DNA of 64,000 bases from Candidatus Gastranaerophilales bacterium (GTDB taxonomy: Bacteria; Cyanobacteriota; Vampirovibrionia; Gastranaerophilales; Gastranaerophilaceae), in assembly GCA_017415185.1 (NCBI GenBank), contig JAFQHZ010000028.1, forward strand, positions 1 through 64,000. Reading direction: 5' to 3'. Under the pieces are notes generated by a model. The model searched no databases, had not been told where the DNA came from, and saw only the letters and a list, made by a program, of their open reading frames with translations. Positions 1,871 to 10,770 of this stretch are shown piece by piece (position 1 is the stretch's first letter; every line of letters starts with the position of its first letter). The translations under genes and the position numbers were made by a program.

Positions 1871-2476
1871 CTAATGGTTGATTTTTGAGCCAATTTTCGC
1901 ATCTAAATAATTATTATTTGAAAAATCATAGCTATTTATATAATCAAGCGCTTCTTCTGGCGTATTTGCAACAAAATACATATCTTTGCAAATTTCTGGC
2001 GCAAATTTTTGCTGAATGATGTCATCAAAAAAATTGACCAAATTATTATAAAAACCGTTTGTATTTAATAAAACTATCGGTTTGTTGTTGTAACCAAGTT
2101 GTTTTTGAACTATCATTTCGCTCAATTCTTCCAATGTTCCAAAACCACCTGCAAGAGCAATTAAAGCTTGCGATAATTCATCCATTTTGGCTTTTCTTTC
2201 TCGCATTCCCTTGGTTAAAATGAATTTTGAACATTCTCCTGGGTTGATTCCCAAATTATAAAGCTTTTCAGGCATTACGCCAATAATTTCACTCCCCCTT
2301 AAGCGAGCAGAAGATGTTACTTCGCCCATTAAGCCAAGGTTTGAACCGCCATAAATTACATCATAGCGATTTTGCGCAATTAGCACACCAAGCTCGTGTG
2401 CAGCTTTAAAATATATTTCGTTTATGTTGTTTGATGCGCTTGCAAAAACGCAAATTGTTTTGATATTTTTATTCAT
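1871..2476 (-). CDS. LOG-family Rossmann-fold nucleotide hydrolase
   Basis: A 201-aa protein of the TIGR00730/LOG family (cytokinin riboside 5'-monophosphate phosphoribohydrolase-like), which cleaves nucleoside 5'-monophosphates to base and ribose 5-phosphate. Seen: YGGSNLGLMGEV at 42-53, the MRERK segment at 91-95 and the AGGFGTLEEL signature at 109-118. The family consensus is PGGxGTxxE; here Pro is Ala, while the catalytic Glu and Arg are kept. Its start overlaps the ugd stop by 8 nt, so it belongs to the ugd/uxs operon. Physiological substrate in bacteria is uncertain. Confidence 0.85.
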   Translation of the reverse strand: MNKNIKTICVFASASNNINEIYFKAAHELGVLIAQNRYDVIYGGSNLGLMGEVTSSARLRGSEIIGVMPEKLYNLGINPGECSKFILTKGMRERKAKMDELSQALIALAGGFGTLEELSEMIVQKQLGYNNKPIVLLNTNGFYNNLVNFFDDIIQQKFAPEICKDMYFVANTPEEALDYINSYDFSNNNYLDAKIGSKINH

Positions 2477-3740
2477 TTTTACCTATACAAAAATATTGTA
2501 ATCCATATTCATTCAAATTTTTATTAATAAAAATATTTCGACCATCAAAAATTGCTTTGTCTTTCAATTTTAAAAGTGTTTCAAGGGGTAATTCTTTAAA
2601 TTCTTGCCATTCTGTTGTAATAACAAGTGCATTTGCTTCGTTGATTGCTTCTTTAACGCTTTCAACTTGATGATTTTCGATTTTTGCTTTAGGGTCGTAT
2701 GCTTTAATTTTTGCTCCGTTTGATTCCAATTTTTTGATTAATTTTAGGCTTGGAGCCTCTCTTAAATCGTTTGTGTTTGGTTTAAAAGCCAGTCCTAAAA
2801 TTGCAAACGTTTTGTTTTTTATATTGTTTTTATAAAAGCGCATAATTTTTTGGAAAAAATATTCAATTTGATTTTCGTTAATTTCGATTGCGCTTTTAAT
2901 TGTTTCAAGTTCAATTCCTTTTTCTTTTGCAATGTTTACGATTGCTTTTGTGTCTTTTGGAAAACAGCTTCCTCCAAAACCAATTCCTGCGTTTAAGAAT
3001 TTTTCGCCAATTCTTGAGTCTTTAGATAATCCGAGCTTGATGTGTTCAATATTTGCGCCTGTTTTTTCGCAAAGTTTTGCAATTTCATTAATATATGAAA
3101 TTTTTAAAGCTAAAAATGAATTTGCAGCATATTTCACCATTTCTGCAGAATTTTCGTCCATTGTTAAAATTTGATTATCGTTTAAATTAAGAGGTTTATA
3201 TAGCTTTAAAACTTCTTCTAGAGCTTTTTTTGAGCTTGTTCCAATAATTAGTCTTTCAGGATTCAAAAAGTCATTAATTGCGCTTCCTTGCCTTAAAAAC
3301 TCAGGATTTGAAACTATATCAAAAGGCGTTTTGGTTCTTTCTTTCATAAAATTGGTGATTTTTTTATTGAAACCAATTGGAACCGTTGATTTATTGATGA
3401 TTATTGTATAATTTTTGATGTTTTTTGCAATTTCGTTTGCAACTTCAAAAATTGCATTTGTATCAACTTCGCCATTTTCTAATGTTGGCGTTCCGACTGC
3501 TATATAGCAAATATTTGAATCAATTAAACCATCTTTAATTTCTGATGAAAAAGTTATTTTTGATTTATTTTTTAAAATCAATTCTTCCATGTTTGGTTCA
3601 AAAATTGATACTATCCCTTTTTTGAGATTGTTTAGTTTTTTTTCGTCTTTTTCAATACAAACGATTTGATGACCAATTTCAGCAAGGCAAGCAACACAAG
3701 TTAATCCAACATATCCTGCCCCAATTACGCATATTTTCAT
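2469..3740 (-). CDS. ugd: UDP-glucose 6-dehydrogenase
   Basis: A 423-aa enzyme oxidising UDP-glucose to UDP-glucuronate with two NAD+. N-terminal Rossmann motif GAGYVGL (7-13), the conserved STVPIG (118-123), NPEFLRQG (145-152) and the catalytic cysteine C259 in GFGGSCFPKDTKA, then the C-terminal UDP-binding domain with GLAFKPNTNDLREAPS. Length is typical. The start overlaps the stop of the uxs gene (ATGA arrangement), so the two enzymes are translationally coupled and UDP-glucuronate probably passes directly to the decarboxylase. Confidence 0.95.
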   Translation of the reverse strand: MKICVIGAGYVGLTCVACLAEIGHQIVCIEKDEKKLNNLKKGIVSIFEPNMEELILKNKSKITFSSEIKDGLIDSNICYIAVGTPTLENGEVDTNAIFEVANEIAKNIKNYTIIINKSTVPIGFNKKITNFMKERTKTPFDIVSNPEFLRQGSAINDFLNPERLIIGTSSKKALEEVLKLYKPLNLNDNQILTMDENSAEMVKYAANSFLALKISYINEIAKLCEKTGANIEHIKLGLSKDSRIGEKFLNAGIGFGGSCFPKDTKAIVNIAKEKGIELETIKSAIEINENQIEYFFQKIMRFYKNNIKNKTFAILGLAFKPNTNDLREAPSLKLIKKLESNGAKIKAYDPKAKIENHQVESVKEAINEANALVITTEWQEFKELPLETLLKLKDKAIFDGRNIFINKNLNEYGLQYFCIGKNE

Positions 3741-4663
3741 TGAATTATCTCCTTAAAATATGCGATTGTTTTATCAAGTCCTTCATTCAGGCTGATTTTT
3801 GGCTCCCAAATTAATTCTTTTTTTGCTTTTGTGATGTCTGGCTTTCTTTTTATTGGGTCGTCTTGGGGAAGTTTTTTGAAAACGATTTGAGATTTTGTTT
3901 CAATCTTTGACATTATTATTTCCGCAGTTTTTAAAATGCTATATTCGAAAGGATTTCCAAGGTTTATTGGTGTTGAAATATTTGATTCCATTAATTTAAT
4001 TAATCCATCGATTAAATCGTCAATATAGCAATATGAGCGAGTTTGACTGCCATCGCCATAGATTGTTATTTCTTTGTTGCTTAATGCTTGAACGATGAAA
4101 TTTGAGATAACTCTTCCATCGTCTTGGCGCATATTTTTGCCGTATGTGTTAAATATTCTTGCAATTTTTATATTTACATCATATTGTTTATGATAGTCCG
4201 ACATAAAAGTTTCGGCGCATCTTTTGCCTTCATCATAACAACTTCTAGGACCATTAATATTAACATTTCCAAAATAGTCTTCATTTTGAGGATGAATCAA
4301 AGGATTGCCATATACTTCGCTTGTTGAACTTTGTAAGATTTTGGCATTATATTTTTTTGCAAGTTCCAAAAGATTATAAATTCCAAATACGCATGTTTTT
4401 AAAGTTTGAAGTGAATCTTTTTGATAATGAACGGGGCTTGCTGGACAAGCTAGATTATAAATTTCATCAATTTCAATGTCTATTGGGTTTATTATATCGT
4501 GTTCTATGAATTTAAAATTTGGATTTTCCAATAACGGCATAATATTTGTCATGTCGCCTGTTGATAGGTTATCAAGGCAAATGACAATATTGTCTTTAAT
4601 TAATCTTTTGCATAGGTTTGAACCTATGAAGCCAGCTCCTCCGGTTATCAAAATTGTTTTCAT
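3737..4663 (-). CDS. UDP-glucuronate decarboxylase (UDP-xylose synthase)
   Basis: A 308-aa short-chain dehydrogenase (extended SDR). GGAGFIGSN at 8-16, SSTSEVYG at 112-119, and the Y143xxxK147 catalytic pair in GPRSCYDEGKRCAE, the last two in the form typical of UXS rather than GalE or RmlB. ACPASPVHYQ and TLKTCVFGIYNLLE are also UXS hallmarks. The product is UDP-xylose for envelope glycans. First gene of the operon with ugd and the LOG protein. A TATAAT-like element lies on the minus strand in the 46-bp gap to the next gene, but no good -35 is seen. Confidence 0.92.
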   Translation of the reverse strand: MKTILITGGAGFIGSNLCKRLIKDNIVICLDNLSTGDMTNIMPLLENPNFKFIEHDIINPIDIEIDEIYNLACPASPVHYQKDSLQTLKTCVFGIYNLLELAKKYNAKILQSSTSEVYGNPLIHPQNEDYFGNVNINGPRSCYDEGKRCAETFMSDYHKQYDVNIKIARIFNTYGKNMRQDDGRVISNFIVQALSNKEITIYGDGSQTRSYCYIDDLIDGLIKLMESNISTPINLGNPFEYSILKTAEIIMSKIETKSQIVFKKLPQDDPIKRKPDITKAKKELIWEPKISLNEGLDKTIAYFKEIIQ

Positions 4664-6099: not shown

Positions 6100-6156
<57 letters not shown>

Positions 6157-6176
<20 letters not shown>

Positions 6177-6209
6177 TTTGCAAGAGGCTTAAAGCCTCTT
6201 TTTTAGTGC
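6157..6209 (+). repeat. 53-bp direct repeat, copy 1 (tRNA 3' end plus terminator)
   Basis: This segment (last 20 bases of the tRNA gene, spacer and terminator) is repeated without mismatch at 6355-6407, offset 198 bp. The layout (intact tRNA gene followed by a second copy of its 3' end) is that of an attachment-site duplication, or of a local tandem duplication. Confidence 0.95.
6181..6206 (+). terminator. intrinsic terminator of tRNA-fMet
   Basis: AGAGGCTT-AA-AGCCTCT stem followed by T6, starting 6-8 bases after the CCA end. Confidence 0.85.
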
Positions 6210-6354: not shown

Positions 6355-6407
6355 AAATCCGGCTCCCGCAACCATTTGCAAGAGGCTTAAAGCCTCTTTT
6401 TTAGTGC
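6355..6407 (+). repeat. 53-bp direct repeat, copy 2 (truncated tRNA end plus second terminator)
   Basis: Identical to 6157-6209. It holds only the 3' 20 bases of the tRNA-fMet, so it is not a functional tRNA, followed by a full second copy of the hairpin and T-run (6379-6404). Confidence 0.95.
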
Positions 6408-7503: not shown

Positions 7504-8193
7504 ATGAATAACTATGCAATAATTTTAGCTTCAGGCACAGGTAGTCGTTTTGGTTCAAATGTTCCAAAGCAATTTAGTAAAATTTGCAATAAAACAATAA
7601 TTGAATACACAATTGAAGCTTTTGAAGAATCAGATTTAATTGATAAAATTATTTTGGTTGTTGTTGATAAATATCTTGATTTTGTTTGCAATTTAGTTCA
7701 AAAAAATAATTATAAGAAGATTTATAAAGTAATCAAGGGTGGTTTAACCCGAAAAGAAAGCTCTTTTAATGGCGTATTTGCAATTGATGAAATAAATGCA
7801 AATGTTTTAATTCATGATTGCGCTAGGCCTTTTGTTTCAAATCGTATTATTAAAGACTGCATTTGCGCCCTAAAAGATTATGATGCTGTTAATGTTGCTA
7901 TTCCTTGTACTGATACAATTTTAGAAATCAAGGACAATATTATTCAATCGATACCTCAAAGAAGCAATTTAAGGGCTGTTCAAACTCCGCAATGTTTTAA
8001 GCTTTCGACTATTAAAAAAGCCCACCAATTGTCTAAAAATGACTCCGAATTTAGTGATGATTGCGGGCTTGTTTTAAAACATAATCTTTGCCCGATTTTT
8101 GTTGTCGAGGGCGATGTTAATAATTTTAAAATCACTTATCCTAATGATTTCTTTTTGGCTCAAAAAATTATTAATGATTTAAAAATAAAATAG
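7504..8193 (+). CDS. IspD/TarI-family cytidylyltransferase
   Basis: A 229-aa nucleotidyltransferase of the IspD type: LASGTGSRFG (9-18) and PKQF (CTP binding), KGGLTRKESSFNG, HDCARPFV, a central AIPCTDT, and AVQTPQCF. IspD makes CDP-methylerythritol for isoprenoids; relatives TarI and Bcs1 make CDP-ribitol, and other members activate small alcohol phosphates. It sits upstream of an aminotransferase, a TagD-like cytidylyltransferase and an aldolase, which favours a role in activating a small molecule for the envelope. True IspD cannot be excluded. A weak promoter (TTGCAA-N17-TTTGAT) precedes it. Confidence 0.82.
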   Translation: MNNYAIILASGTGSRFGSNVPKQFSKICNKTIIEYTIEAFEESDLIDKIILVVVDKYLDFVCNLVQKNNYKKIYKVIKGGLTRKESSFNGVFAIDEINANVLIHDCARPFVSNRIIKDCICALKDYDAVNVAIPCTDTILEIKDNIIQSIPQRSNLRAVQTPQCFKLSTIKKAHQLSKNDSEFSDDCGLVLKHNLCPIFVVEGDVNNFKITYPNDFFLAQKIINDLKIK

Positions 8194-8249
8194 TAAAATA
8201 TATAATTTGTTGTTATAATTGGTTTGTAAATAACTATTTTAGGGGAAAT

Positions 8250-9350
8250 ATGAAACATTTTATCGTTGGTCCTGTTGAGATGTATCCTTGCACAAAGGAA
8301 ATTTATAAAGATGGCATTGTATATTTTAGAACCCCTGAATTTTCAAAAATTGTTTTAAATTGTTTATCTAAGTTATCTTGCTTAATTGGCAATAGCGAAG
8401 AATCCTCAATGATATATTTAACAGCTTCTGGCACTGCTGCAATGGAGGCTGTTGTTGAAAATACTGTTTTTGATAATGACAAAGTTTTGGTCATTAATGG
8501 CGGAACTTTTGGGCATAGATTTTGTGAACTTTTAAAGTATCACAATAAAAATTATGAGTCATTAAATCTTTCATGGGGTGAAGCATTAAATGAAGATTTA
8601 TTGAATAAGTTTGATAATCAAAATTTCACTATGTTGTTTGTTAATCTTCATGAAACTTCTGTTGGTCAATTGTATGACATCGAATTATTAAAAAGATTTT
8701 GCAAGAAAAATAATCTTTTGCTTGTTGTGGACGCTATTTCAACATTTCTTGCTGATGATTATAATATGGATAAAAATGGTATTGATGTTACTATTGCAAG
8801 CTCTCAAAAAGGCTTGTGTTTGTCTGCTGGCTTGTCTTTTGTTAGCGTTTCAAAAAGAATAAAAGAAAAGATTTTAAATGCGCCAAATCCTTCAAGTTGT
8901 TATTTTAATTTTAAAGATTATTTTAAAAATATTGAACGTGGCCAAACGCCATATACTCCAGCTGTTCATATAATTTATGAATTGCAAGCAATATTAAATT
9001 ATATCGATTCTTTTGGTGGCAAGGAAAAATGGCTCGAAAATATTAAACAAAAAGCGCAATATTTTAGAAAAAAAGCACAAGAATTTGGTTATTCTATTCC
9101 AAAATATCCACTTTCAAACATGCTCACCCCTTTAATTTTTAATGATGTTAAAGCGAGCGATGTTGTTTTAGAATTAAAAGACAAATATCAAATTTATGTT
9201 AATCCTTGTGGTGGTGAAATGGCTGACAAATTGATTCGTGTTTCTCATATTGGAAATACTAATTTGCAAGATATTGATGATTTGTTTGAAAAAATGAATA
9301 TTGTTGTTGGGGATTTGAAAAATAAGGAGCTTGTTTATGATAGGAAATAA
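8250..9350 (+). CDS. class V PLP-dependent aminotransferase
   Basis: 366 aa, fold-type I. The PLP lysine is K187 in SSQKGL, and D161 in VDAIS should bind the pyridine nitrogen. The N-terminus (FIVGPVEM, FRTPEF) resembles alanine-glyoxylate, serine-pyruvate and 2-aminoethylphosphonate transaminases. No PEP mutase or phosphonopyruvate decarboxylase is nearby, so a phosphonate role is only one option. RBS AGGGGAAAT precedes the ATG. It overlaps the next gene by 14 nt and follows the ispD-like gene by 56 bp. Expected to interconvert an amino and keto (or aldehyde) group on a small precursor. Confidence 0.85.
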   Translation: MKHFIVGPVEMYPCTKEIYKDGIVYFRTPEFSKIVLNCLSKLSCLIGNSEESSMIYLTASGTAAMEAVVENTVFDNDKVLVINGGTFGHRFCELLKYHNKNYESLNLSWGEALNEDLLNKFDNQNFTMLFVNLHETSVGQLYDIELLKRFCKKNNLLLVVDAISTFLADDYNMDKNGIDVTIASSQKGLCLSAGLSFVSVSKRIKEKILNAPNPSSCYFNFKDYFKNIERGQTPYTPAVHIIYELQAILNYIDSFGGKEKWLENIKQKAQYFRKKAQEFGYSIPKYPLSNMLTPLIFNDVKASDVVLELKDKYQIYVNPCGGEMADKLIRVSHIGNTNLQDIDDLFEKMNIVVGDLKNKELVYDRK

Positions 9351-9801
9351 GACCGTTGTATATACTTCTGGCACTTTTGATATGCTTCATATTAATCATT
9401 TGAAAATGATTGAATATGCAAGAGCCTTAGGCGACATTTTAATTGTTGGAGTTAATACTGATGAGCTTGTTGCGAGTTATAAATCTATGCCAATTATTCC
9501 TTTTGAAGAAAGAATTGGCTTAATGAAAGCGATTAAGGGTCCTGATATTGTAATTCCTCAAAAATCTCTTGATCATAGAGACAAAGTTGCAAAATTAAAT
9601 TTTGATATTTTTGTTGTCGGGGATGATTGGGCTGGAAAATTTGACTATCTTAAAGAGCAAGGTGTTGAAGTTGTATATTTTCCTTATGGCGATGGTATTA
9701 GTTCTTCTAATTTAAAAGCAAGAATTTATGAAAATTATCAAAAACTTCAGGAAAAGGCAAATAATCATATTCCTGATGATTTTGATAAAGAAGATAAATA
9801 A
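9337..9801 (+). CDS. TagD-like glycerol-3-phosphate cytidylyltransferase family protein
   Basis: 154 aa starting at ATG 9337, seven bases after AAGGAG; a TTG at 9331 sits too close to the SD. Family landmarks: TSGTFDMLHINH (the HxGH nucleotide-binding site), FVVGDDWAGKFDYL, and GDGISSSNLK (counterpart of RTEGISTT in TagD). In HINH, Asn replaces the usual Gly of HxGH. Known relatives transfer CMP from CTP to glycerol 3-phosphate, phosphoethanolamine or similar. Start nested in the end of the aminotransferase gene and stop abutting the aldolase start indicate tight coupling. Confidence 0.85.
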   Translation: MIGNKTVVYTSGTFDMLHINHLKMIEYARALGDILIVGVNTDELVASYKSMPIIPFEERIGLMKAIKGPDIVIPQKSLDHRDKVAKLNFDIFVVGDDWAGKFDYLKEQGVEVVYFPYGDGISSSNLKARIYENYQKLQEKANNHIPDDFDKEDK

Positions 9802-10770
9802 ATGAATATCGAAGTTCTTGATTGTACACTTAGGGATGGCGGATATGTTAATGATTGGAATTTTGGATATGACAATATTCAAAAAATAATCAACAATCTT
9901 ATTTTGTCTAAAATTCAATTTATCGAATGCGGTTTTTTGAAAAAAAATCTTTTTAATCGAGATTTTTCTTTGTTTAATTCTTTTGAAGCTTTAAACGAAT
10001 TTCCTAACAATTCCAAACTTGGTTTAATGCTTAATTTTGGCGAATTTGATGAAAAAGAGTTATTGGAATTAAATCCGTATAATTTTTTTCTTCGAATTGC
10101 TTTTAAAAAAGAAGATTTTAGTGGCGCAATGTCTTTGTGTGAGGTTTTAATTAAAAATGGATTTAAGATTTTTATAAATCCTATGAATACAATTAGCTAT
10201 AATGATATTGAGTTGCTTAATTTGATTGAATTTGCTAATAAAATCAAGCCTTTTGTTCTCACAATTGTTGACACTATGGGGCAAATGAACAAAAAAGAAA
10301 CTTTATTAATGTTTTATTTGTTCGATAAAAATTTAAATTCTGATATCGCAATTGGATATCATTCGCATAACGCTCTTGCACTTTCTTTTTCAAATGTTCA
10401 ATGTTTGCTTGAACAAAAAAGCGATAGAAGCTTAATTATTGATTCAACTTTGTTTGGAATGGGGCGTGGCGCAGGAAATTTATCCAGCGAATTATTAATT
10501 CAATATTTGAACGATAATTACGAAAAAGATTTTGATTCAATTCCAATTTTAAAATCGATTCAAGAATCAATTAATCCAATTTTTGACAAATCTCCTTGGG
10601 GATATAGTATCCCTTATCGTATTGCAGCGCTGAATTCTTGCCATCCTAATTATGCAAAATTATTGATTGAAAAAAAAGTTGATATTGAAATTATTGATAA
10701 AATTTTGAAAAAAATTCCGGAAGAAAAAAAAGCTTCTTTTGATAAAAAAATATTAGAAAATATTATGTAA
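9802..10770 (+). CDS. DRE-TIM (HMGL-like) aldolase
   Basis: 322 aa. The N-terminal DCTLRDGGYVND supplies the catalytic Arg-Asp and a metal-binding Asp; GYHSHNALAL gives the HxH metal ligands; GMGRGAGN closes the active site. This is the pattern of 4-hydroxy-2-oxovalerate aldolase relatives found in polysaccharide loci, which join or split pyruvate-type keto acids and aldehydes with a divalent metal. The ATG follows the upstream TAA directly. Last gene of the four-gene cassette; its product could feed the aminotransferase or the cytidylyltransferases. Confidence 0.85.
   Translation: MNIEVLDCTLRDGGYVNDWNFGYDNIQKIINNLILSKIQFIECGFLKKNLFNRDFSLFNSFEALNEFPNNSKLGLMLNFGEFDEKELLELNPYNFFLRIAFKKEDFSGAMSLCEVLIKNGFKIFINPMNTISYNDIELLNLIEFANKIKPFVLTIVDTMGQMNKKETLLMFYLFDKNLNSDIAIGYHSHNALALSFSNVQCLLEQKSDRSLIIDSTLFGMGRGAGNLSSELLIQYLNDNYEKDFDSIPILKSIQESINPIFDKSPWGYSIPYRIAALNSCHPNYAKLLIEKKVDIEIIDKILKKIPEEKKASFDKKILENIM

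Follow-up and report, generated by a model that had tools for sequence, protein, structure and literature searches.

The locus

The DNA described here, called the window below, is a stretch of 64,000 nucleotides from a Candidatus Gastranaerophilales bacterium (GenBank assembly GCA_017415185.1, contig JAFQHZ010000028.1). In our numbering it is contig C25 of genome G000, which measures 1.87 Mb and is 97.5% complete. Four genes follow each other closely on its forward strand. Two of these, a class V pyridoxal phosphate (PLP) aminotransferase, here called AT5, and a TagD-like cytidylyltransferase, form a pair that is widely shared among gut microbes. The probable product of this pair is a small activated amino-alcohol for the decoration of surface sugars.

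The first gene (7504-8193, +) encodes an IspD-family cytidylyltransferase of 229 amino acids (Pfam IspD, 175.8 bits). A gap of 56 bp with a good ribosome-binding site, aggggaaat (8194-8249, +), separates it from AT5 (8250-9350, +; 366 amino acids; Pfam Aminotran_5, 68.2 bits). The TagD-like gene (9337-9801, +; 154 amino acids; Pfam CTP_transf_like, 60.8 bits) belongs to a distinct subfamily and overlaps AT5 by 14 nt. It is followed at 0 bp by an HMGL-like (DRE-TIM) aldolase resembling 3dxi (9802-10770, +; 322 amino acids; Pfam HMGL-like, 52.3 bits).

All four proteins exceed the Pfam cut-off, and all four genes start with ATG. For the TagD-like gene this is the start common to its homologs; the mechanical open reading frame (ORF) caller chose a TTG two codons upstream. 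In the PDB, the relatives of the four proteins are the IspD/TarI family, 3f0h (AT5), 1coz (TagD-like) and the putative aldolase 3dxi. An original prediction, made from the letters of the window, had described these four ORFs and their spacing, which the coordinates bear out, and had read them as a possible single pathway to a small molecule activated by cytidine diphosphate (CDP).

Conservation of the pair

AT5 and the TagD-like gene are a real conserved two-gene pair. Across 382 genomes of the class, searches give 20 sites, the window among them, where AT5 identity is above 50%. Gene order was compared for the 19 others, all from the same family, and in all 19 the TagD-like gene either adjoins AT5 or is one gene off. 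In the loci aligned, the TagD-like proteins are 82-87% identical to that of the window, while for AT5 this is 52-64%.

A wider scan covers GTDB contigs, where loci are counted by the type of neighbour, and partially overlaps with the 19 family loci. It contains 29 loci with the core TagD type, and AT5 is 0-1 gene away in every one of them. These include two from Verrucomicrobiota (L128, L129) and one from a Succinivibrio bin (L133). Some GTDB bins are possibly mislabelled, but these three loci branch deeply and separately. Where near relatives of the pair are named, most are Candidatus Gastranaerophilales. On viral contigs there is one distant AT5 match (42% identity), and on plasmids one TagD relative.

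The AT5 proteins of the core loci and the window form a single clade (SH-aLRT 100), with 1 label change versus 24.2 in shuffles. Core TagD is also a single clade (support 97/96).

The other two genes do not travel along. The aldolase is near the pair in none of the 19 other family loci and none of the 29 core loci, and among the related loci of both searches there is no second instance of the four-gene order. A conserved four-gene unit is thus ruled out, as no other locus carries all four. Members of the IspD family are near the pair in a few loci. The type found in the window occurs there solely as a fusion of IspD with a short-chain dehydrogenase/reductase (SDR), in L088/L127 and L126; a more distant IspD type is near the pair in L089 and L099. 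The IspD and aldolase neighbours are probably incidental to the pair.

Neighbours of the pair

What the pair does keep close is genes for glycan decoration. Of the 29 core loci, 20 have LicD no more than 6 genes away, and 23 have either LicD or a TagF-type gene. By Pfam, a neighbour in L094 is confirmed as LicD and another, in L087, as TagF, and the LicD signature is visible in many members of the LicD neighbour cluster. Given these neighbours, the pair points to glycan decoration.

Three of the 20 family loci (L086, L093, L095) have a NodS-like methyltransferase between AT5 and TagD. A methyltransferase inside the pair is as expected if the amine is made before activation with cytidine triphosphate (CTP).

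Outside the core clade, AT5 relatives with 42-50% identity are found near a LicC-like cytidylyltransferase or near one in which TagD is fused to a Gfo/Idh oxidoreductase, often along with LicD. Some cytidylyltransferase is at most 3 genes away in 72 of the 78 loci that have a related aminotransferase.

The fusion of TagD with a Gfo/Idh/MocA oxidoreductase is close to a related aminotransferase, often with LicD, in L138, L150, L151, L158, L168, L171, L172, L174, L181 and L182. These loci come from Bacillota, Mycoplasmatota and Methanobrevibacter. Flagellin-like genes in Amphibacillus and Evansella (L136, 7234-9775; L137, 7240-9781) have as neighbours a LicC-like gene, LicD and a related aminotransferase, an arrangement that suggests decoration of flagellin.

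The two enzymes

In AT5, K187 is the lysine expected to bind PLP and is part of an SQKG motif. It is invariant in 19 homologs, as are D161 and R330. The closest solved relative is 3f0h.

The TagD-like enzyme carries the motifs HINH and YFPYGxGISSS, the latter as PYGDGISSS in the window. Its best PDB matches are 1coz (101 bits) and 2b7l (93 bits). The core TagD clade is separate from TagD/TarD, from the TagD domain in Gfo/Idh oxidoreductase fusions, and from the cytidylyltransferase domain fused to phosphoenolpyruvate (PEP) mutase. That the enzyme is a true TagD glycerol-3-phosphate cytidylyltransferase is ruled out by the model cut-off and by its motifs (HINH, PYGDGISSS).

A relative of core TagD with HYNH and YFPYG motifs is found in Parabacteroides distasonis (L253, 12001-14934) and in L266. 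There it shares an operon with genes for an SDR, an acyltransferase and a CDP-alcohol phosphatidyltransferase. Among the 395 sampled genomes of the phylum, one has such a match. The operon is perhaps for an unusual lipid head group.

Proposed pathway

The proposal is that AT5 and the TagD-like enzyme are a two-enzyme module for a CDP-activated amino-alcohol, which a LicD- or TagF-type enzyme would transfer to a surface glycan. We give this a probability of roughly one half. The substrates, the order of the steps and the transferase are things we infer, as is the housekeeping role given to the IspD-like gene below.

In the first step AT5 would transaminate a common phosphorylated ketone or aldehyde, yielding an amino-alcohol phosphate. 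Since the pair has no constant third enzyme, the substrate should be such a common compound. The leading guess is dihydroxyacetone phosphate (DHAP), giving serinol phosphate; the alternatives are glycolaldehyde phosphate and glyceraldehyde 3-phosphate. The TagD-like enzyme would then join this product to cytidine monophosphate (CMP), giving a CDP-amino-alcohol. Finally, the transferase would put the phospho-amino-alcohol on a surface glycan. The candidate for this is the genome's single LicD, on contig C10, and the genome has TagF-type genes of its own as well. The upstream IspD-like gene would serve isoprenoid synthesis, and the aldolase would be something added locally, perhaps on the same transcript.

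A more specific version is that the product is CDP-serinol (CDP-2-amino-2-deoxyglycerol), made from DHAP in two steps, a glycan donor like CDP-glycerol. The pair would then be one version of a wider module, found in several bacterial phyla and in gut methanogens, in which the AT5 type is combined with varied cytidylyltransferases and LicD. This we regard as tentative, and clearly less probable than the general proposal. In the open-licence literature in PubMed Central (PMC), searched for CDP-serinol, aminoglycerol and a link between LicD and a class V aminotransferase, there was no CDP route.

Several observations weigh against the proposal. AT5 reaches none of the equivalog cut-offs of known aminotransferases, which leaves the DHAP step as a matter of logic and not of sequence. 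The TagD-like enzyme scores 111.9 against a cut-off of 165.4 for the glycerol-3-phosphate cytidylyltransferase equivalog, which is well under, and it has no RTxGISTT; its substrate may therefore not be glycerol-like. The Parabacteroides relatives of this enzyme, which are 67-68% identical, have no aminotransferase beside them, their neighbours being a CDP-alcohol phosphatidyltransferase and an SDR, so that the subfamily may serve other alcohols. In the window, no LicD or TagF gene is next to the pair, and the LicD on C10 sits in an rml/glycosyltransferase cluster, not on the same contig as the pair.

The nearest competing explanation is that AT5 transaminates glycolaldehyde phosphate, and that the pair makes CDP-ethanolamine, or CDP-choline with the help of a methyltransferase. 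LicD would then transfer phosphoethanolamine or phosphocholine. LicD is classically a phosphocholine transferase, the N-methyltransferase-like gene does lie inside the pair in three loci, and one PDB relative of the TagD-like enzyme is the ethanolamine-phosphate cytidylyltransferase 3elb. The methyltransferase is however limited to these 3 of the 20 family loci, glycolaldehyde phosphate is not an abundant metabolite, and the TagF-type genes nearby fit a glycerol-like donor better. On balance this explanation is doubtful.

The IspD-like gene

Curated models fail to tell IspD and ribitol-5-phosphate cytidylyltransferase apart for the first gene of the cassette. The protein passes the ispD equivalog-domain model TIGR00453 (202.8, cut-off 181.3), and also the ribitol-5-phosphate cytidylyltransferase subfamily (168.8, cut-off 166), and it stays under NF001186 (185.1, cut-off 253). 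The genome has two IspD-family genes, plus a weak match in a longer ORF, and one IspF. The presence of IspF means that an IspD is needed.

A second IspD elsewhere in the genome was something the original prediction had advised looking for, and there is a second IspD-family gene, on contig C4. An SDR-type gene and two TagF-type genes come after it, the whole locus lying at L189, 8919-13355. This copy groups with other SDR-linked copies, in a different clade from the window gene. What is suggested here is a separate CDP-polyol or phosphopolymer locus.

The clade of the window gene is present in 25 sampled family genomes, including that of the window, and is the sole IspD-family gene in 14 of these. 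Most of the remaining family genomes have a third IspD type, a shorter one, in this role. Given these 14 genomes, the SDR and TagF company of the C4 copy, and the presence of IspF, the window gene is probably the housekeeping IspD of the methylerythritol phosphate (MEP) pathway. It may have an extra role, since some members of the clade are fused to an SDR, as in L088.

It would be improbable for the gene to be an additional TarI/Bcs1-like enzyme working alongside the pair instead, with the locus supplying a single polymer with two donors, a CDP-polyol and a CDP-amino-alcohol. Some of the IspD-SDR fusions in its clade are indeed in LicD/AT5 loci (L088, L126), and the ribitol-5-phosphate cut-off is passed. 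But the ispD cut-off is passed too, there is no SDR at the window locus to act as partner, and the MEP pathway would be left with just the C4 copy and its SDR and TagF neighbours.

The aldolase

The 3dxi-like DRE-TIM group to which the aldolase belongs is common: 184 of the 382 class genomes have a match, far more than have the AT5 of the pair. The metal and catalytic positions of the aldolase (D7, R11, D12, H187, H189, N226) are conserved. It remains under both 4-hydroxy-2-oxovalerate aldolase models, with 60.7 versus 229 for the equivalog and 55.5 versus 286 for the subfamily. In contrast to the core pair loci, the 20 aldolase loci of related genomes all lack LicD near the aldolase.

In 6 of the 20 loci examined, a relative of the aldolase has a NeuA-like CMP-sugar synthetase next to it, and a C-terminal extension of about 200 residues is frequent among the relatives. 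The window aldolase has no NeuA-like neighbour. The NeuA-adjacent relatives are in polysaccharide loci (L035, L036, L037, L041, L042, L052), where they may make a keto-acid sugar by way of an aldolase instead of a NeuB-type synthase.

All this bears on whether the four genes serve one molecule, whose skeleton would come from the aldolase, its nitrogen from AT5 and its activation from one or both cytidylyltransferases. The genes are on the same strand and tightly spaced, but the zero gap between TagD and the aldolase suggests one transcript, not one pathway. Given that the four are together in no other locus, that the aldolase is near none of the 29 core pairs and is so much more common than AT5, and that the IspD type of the window is the sole IspD in many genomes, this explanation is quite unlikely.

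The original prediction had proposed exactly this order of steps, from aldolase to aminotransferase to cytidylyltransferase, which is not a general route, as every other locus has the pair without an aldolase. Its suggestion to look for the same four-gene order in related genomes came up empty in the class search. It had also named as contrary evidence an IspD-like gene that is the only IspD, with the other genes apart, and this is largely what is seen: the IspD type of the window stands alone in 14 family genomes, and elsewhere the aldolase is apart from the pair. With those genomes, and the C4 copy beside its SDR and TagF genes, the IspD-like gene probably drops out as a part of one pathway. 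What holds up is a CDP-activated amino compound, with the conserved pair, the loci rich in LicD and TagF, and the cytidylyltransferase company in 72 of 78 loci in its favour; the single four-gene pathway is not supported.

Phosphonates

PEP mutase (TIGR02320) is not found in the genome of the window, in 15 of the 17 other family genomes with the pair, or in the genomes of L128, L129 and L133. In G354 and G238 it is present, on other contigs. Other genomes score over the cut-off, so the search works. A weak PF13714 match in the window genome is PanB beside PanC, and not PEP mutase. The original prediction had held that a phosphonate variant needs a PEP mutase and that none is here, which the genome-wide search confirms. 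A phosphonate product is unlikely.

An actual 2-aminoethylphosphonate (AEP) module, with AT5 as the transaminase and a cytidylyltransferase making CMP-AEP, is very unlikely: PhnW-AepZ is among the best NCBIfam matches of AT5, relatives with about 46% identity are near a fusion of a cytidylyltransferase and PEP mutase with LicD nearby (L145, L154), and the PYxxGISS motif of the TagD-like enzyme resembles that of Fom1, but AT5 scores 136.9 against 360.8 for the AEP transaminase model, and PEP mutase is missing from the window genome and most pair genomes in a search with working positives.

Other features of the window

The GC content of the cassette is 27-30%, with a window mean of 31%, so it is not clearly a foreign island. 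Upstream, the 3' end and terminator of a tRNA-Met (6100-6176), at 6158-6209, are duplicated 198 bp downstream at 6356-6407, with 52 of 52 bases the same. This resembles an integration footprint. The repeat is wholly upstream of the cassette, which is not flanked by it.

Further upstream (2469-4663, -) there are putative genes for a uridine diphosphate (UDP)-glucose dehydrogenase and a UDP-xylose synthase, judged by translation. A promoter scan gives matches no more numerous than in shuffles.

Significance

If the two-enzyme proposal is true, central metabolites are enough for a set of gut bacteria and some gut methanogens to decorate their surface with a phospho-amino-alcohol, and neither choline uptake nor phosphonate chemistry is required. 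Hosts and phages recognise surfaces in part by such charged groups. With just two genes and few candidate substrates, the pair is also directly testable in vitro. And with the four-gene reading corrected, the IspD and aldolase neighbours should not enter the pathway without evidence.

Comparison with known systems

AEP transaminase clusters with a cytidylyltransferase-PEP mutase fusion similarly combine a cytidylyltransferase and a class V aminotransferase at close range, and in L145/L154 LicD is near as well. They differ in that the window genome is without PEP mutase and AT5 is under the AEP transaminase cut-offs. The window aldolase keeps the DRE-TIM metal and catalytic residues of 4-hydroxy-2-oxovalerate aldolase and 3dxi, but reaches 60.7 bits where the cut-off for the former is 229.

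TagD/TarD (1coz, 2b7l) is of the same family as the TagD-like enzyme, and GTFDxLH, GDDWxGKFDxLK and GIS motifs are common to both. The window enzyme is however in a separate clade and below the equivalog cut-off, with HINH in place of HxGH and PYGxGISSS in place of RTxGISTT.

Cj1437 of Campylobacter jejuni is a capsule-linked aminotransferase that transaminates DHAP with L-glutamate (PMC12096443). It serves as the precedent for the first step of the proposal, and is likened to AT5 by reaction only. In that branch the serinol phosphate is amide-linked by an ATP-dependent ligase, and a CDP step is not described.

The lic loci, with LicC and LicD, share the logic of a cytidylyltransferase plus LicD. 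In the proposal for the window, the amine would come from transamination and not from imported choline, and the activating enzyme is of the TagD type instead of the LicC type.

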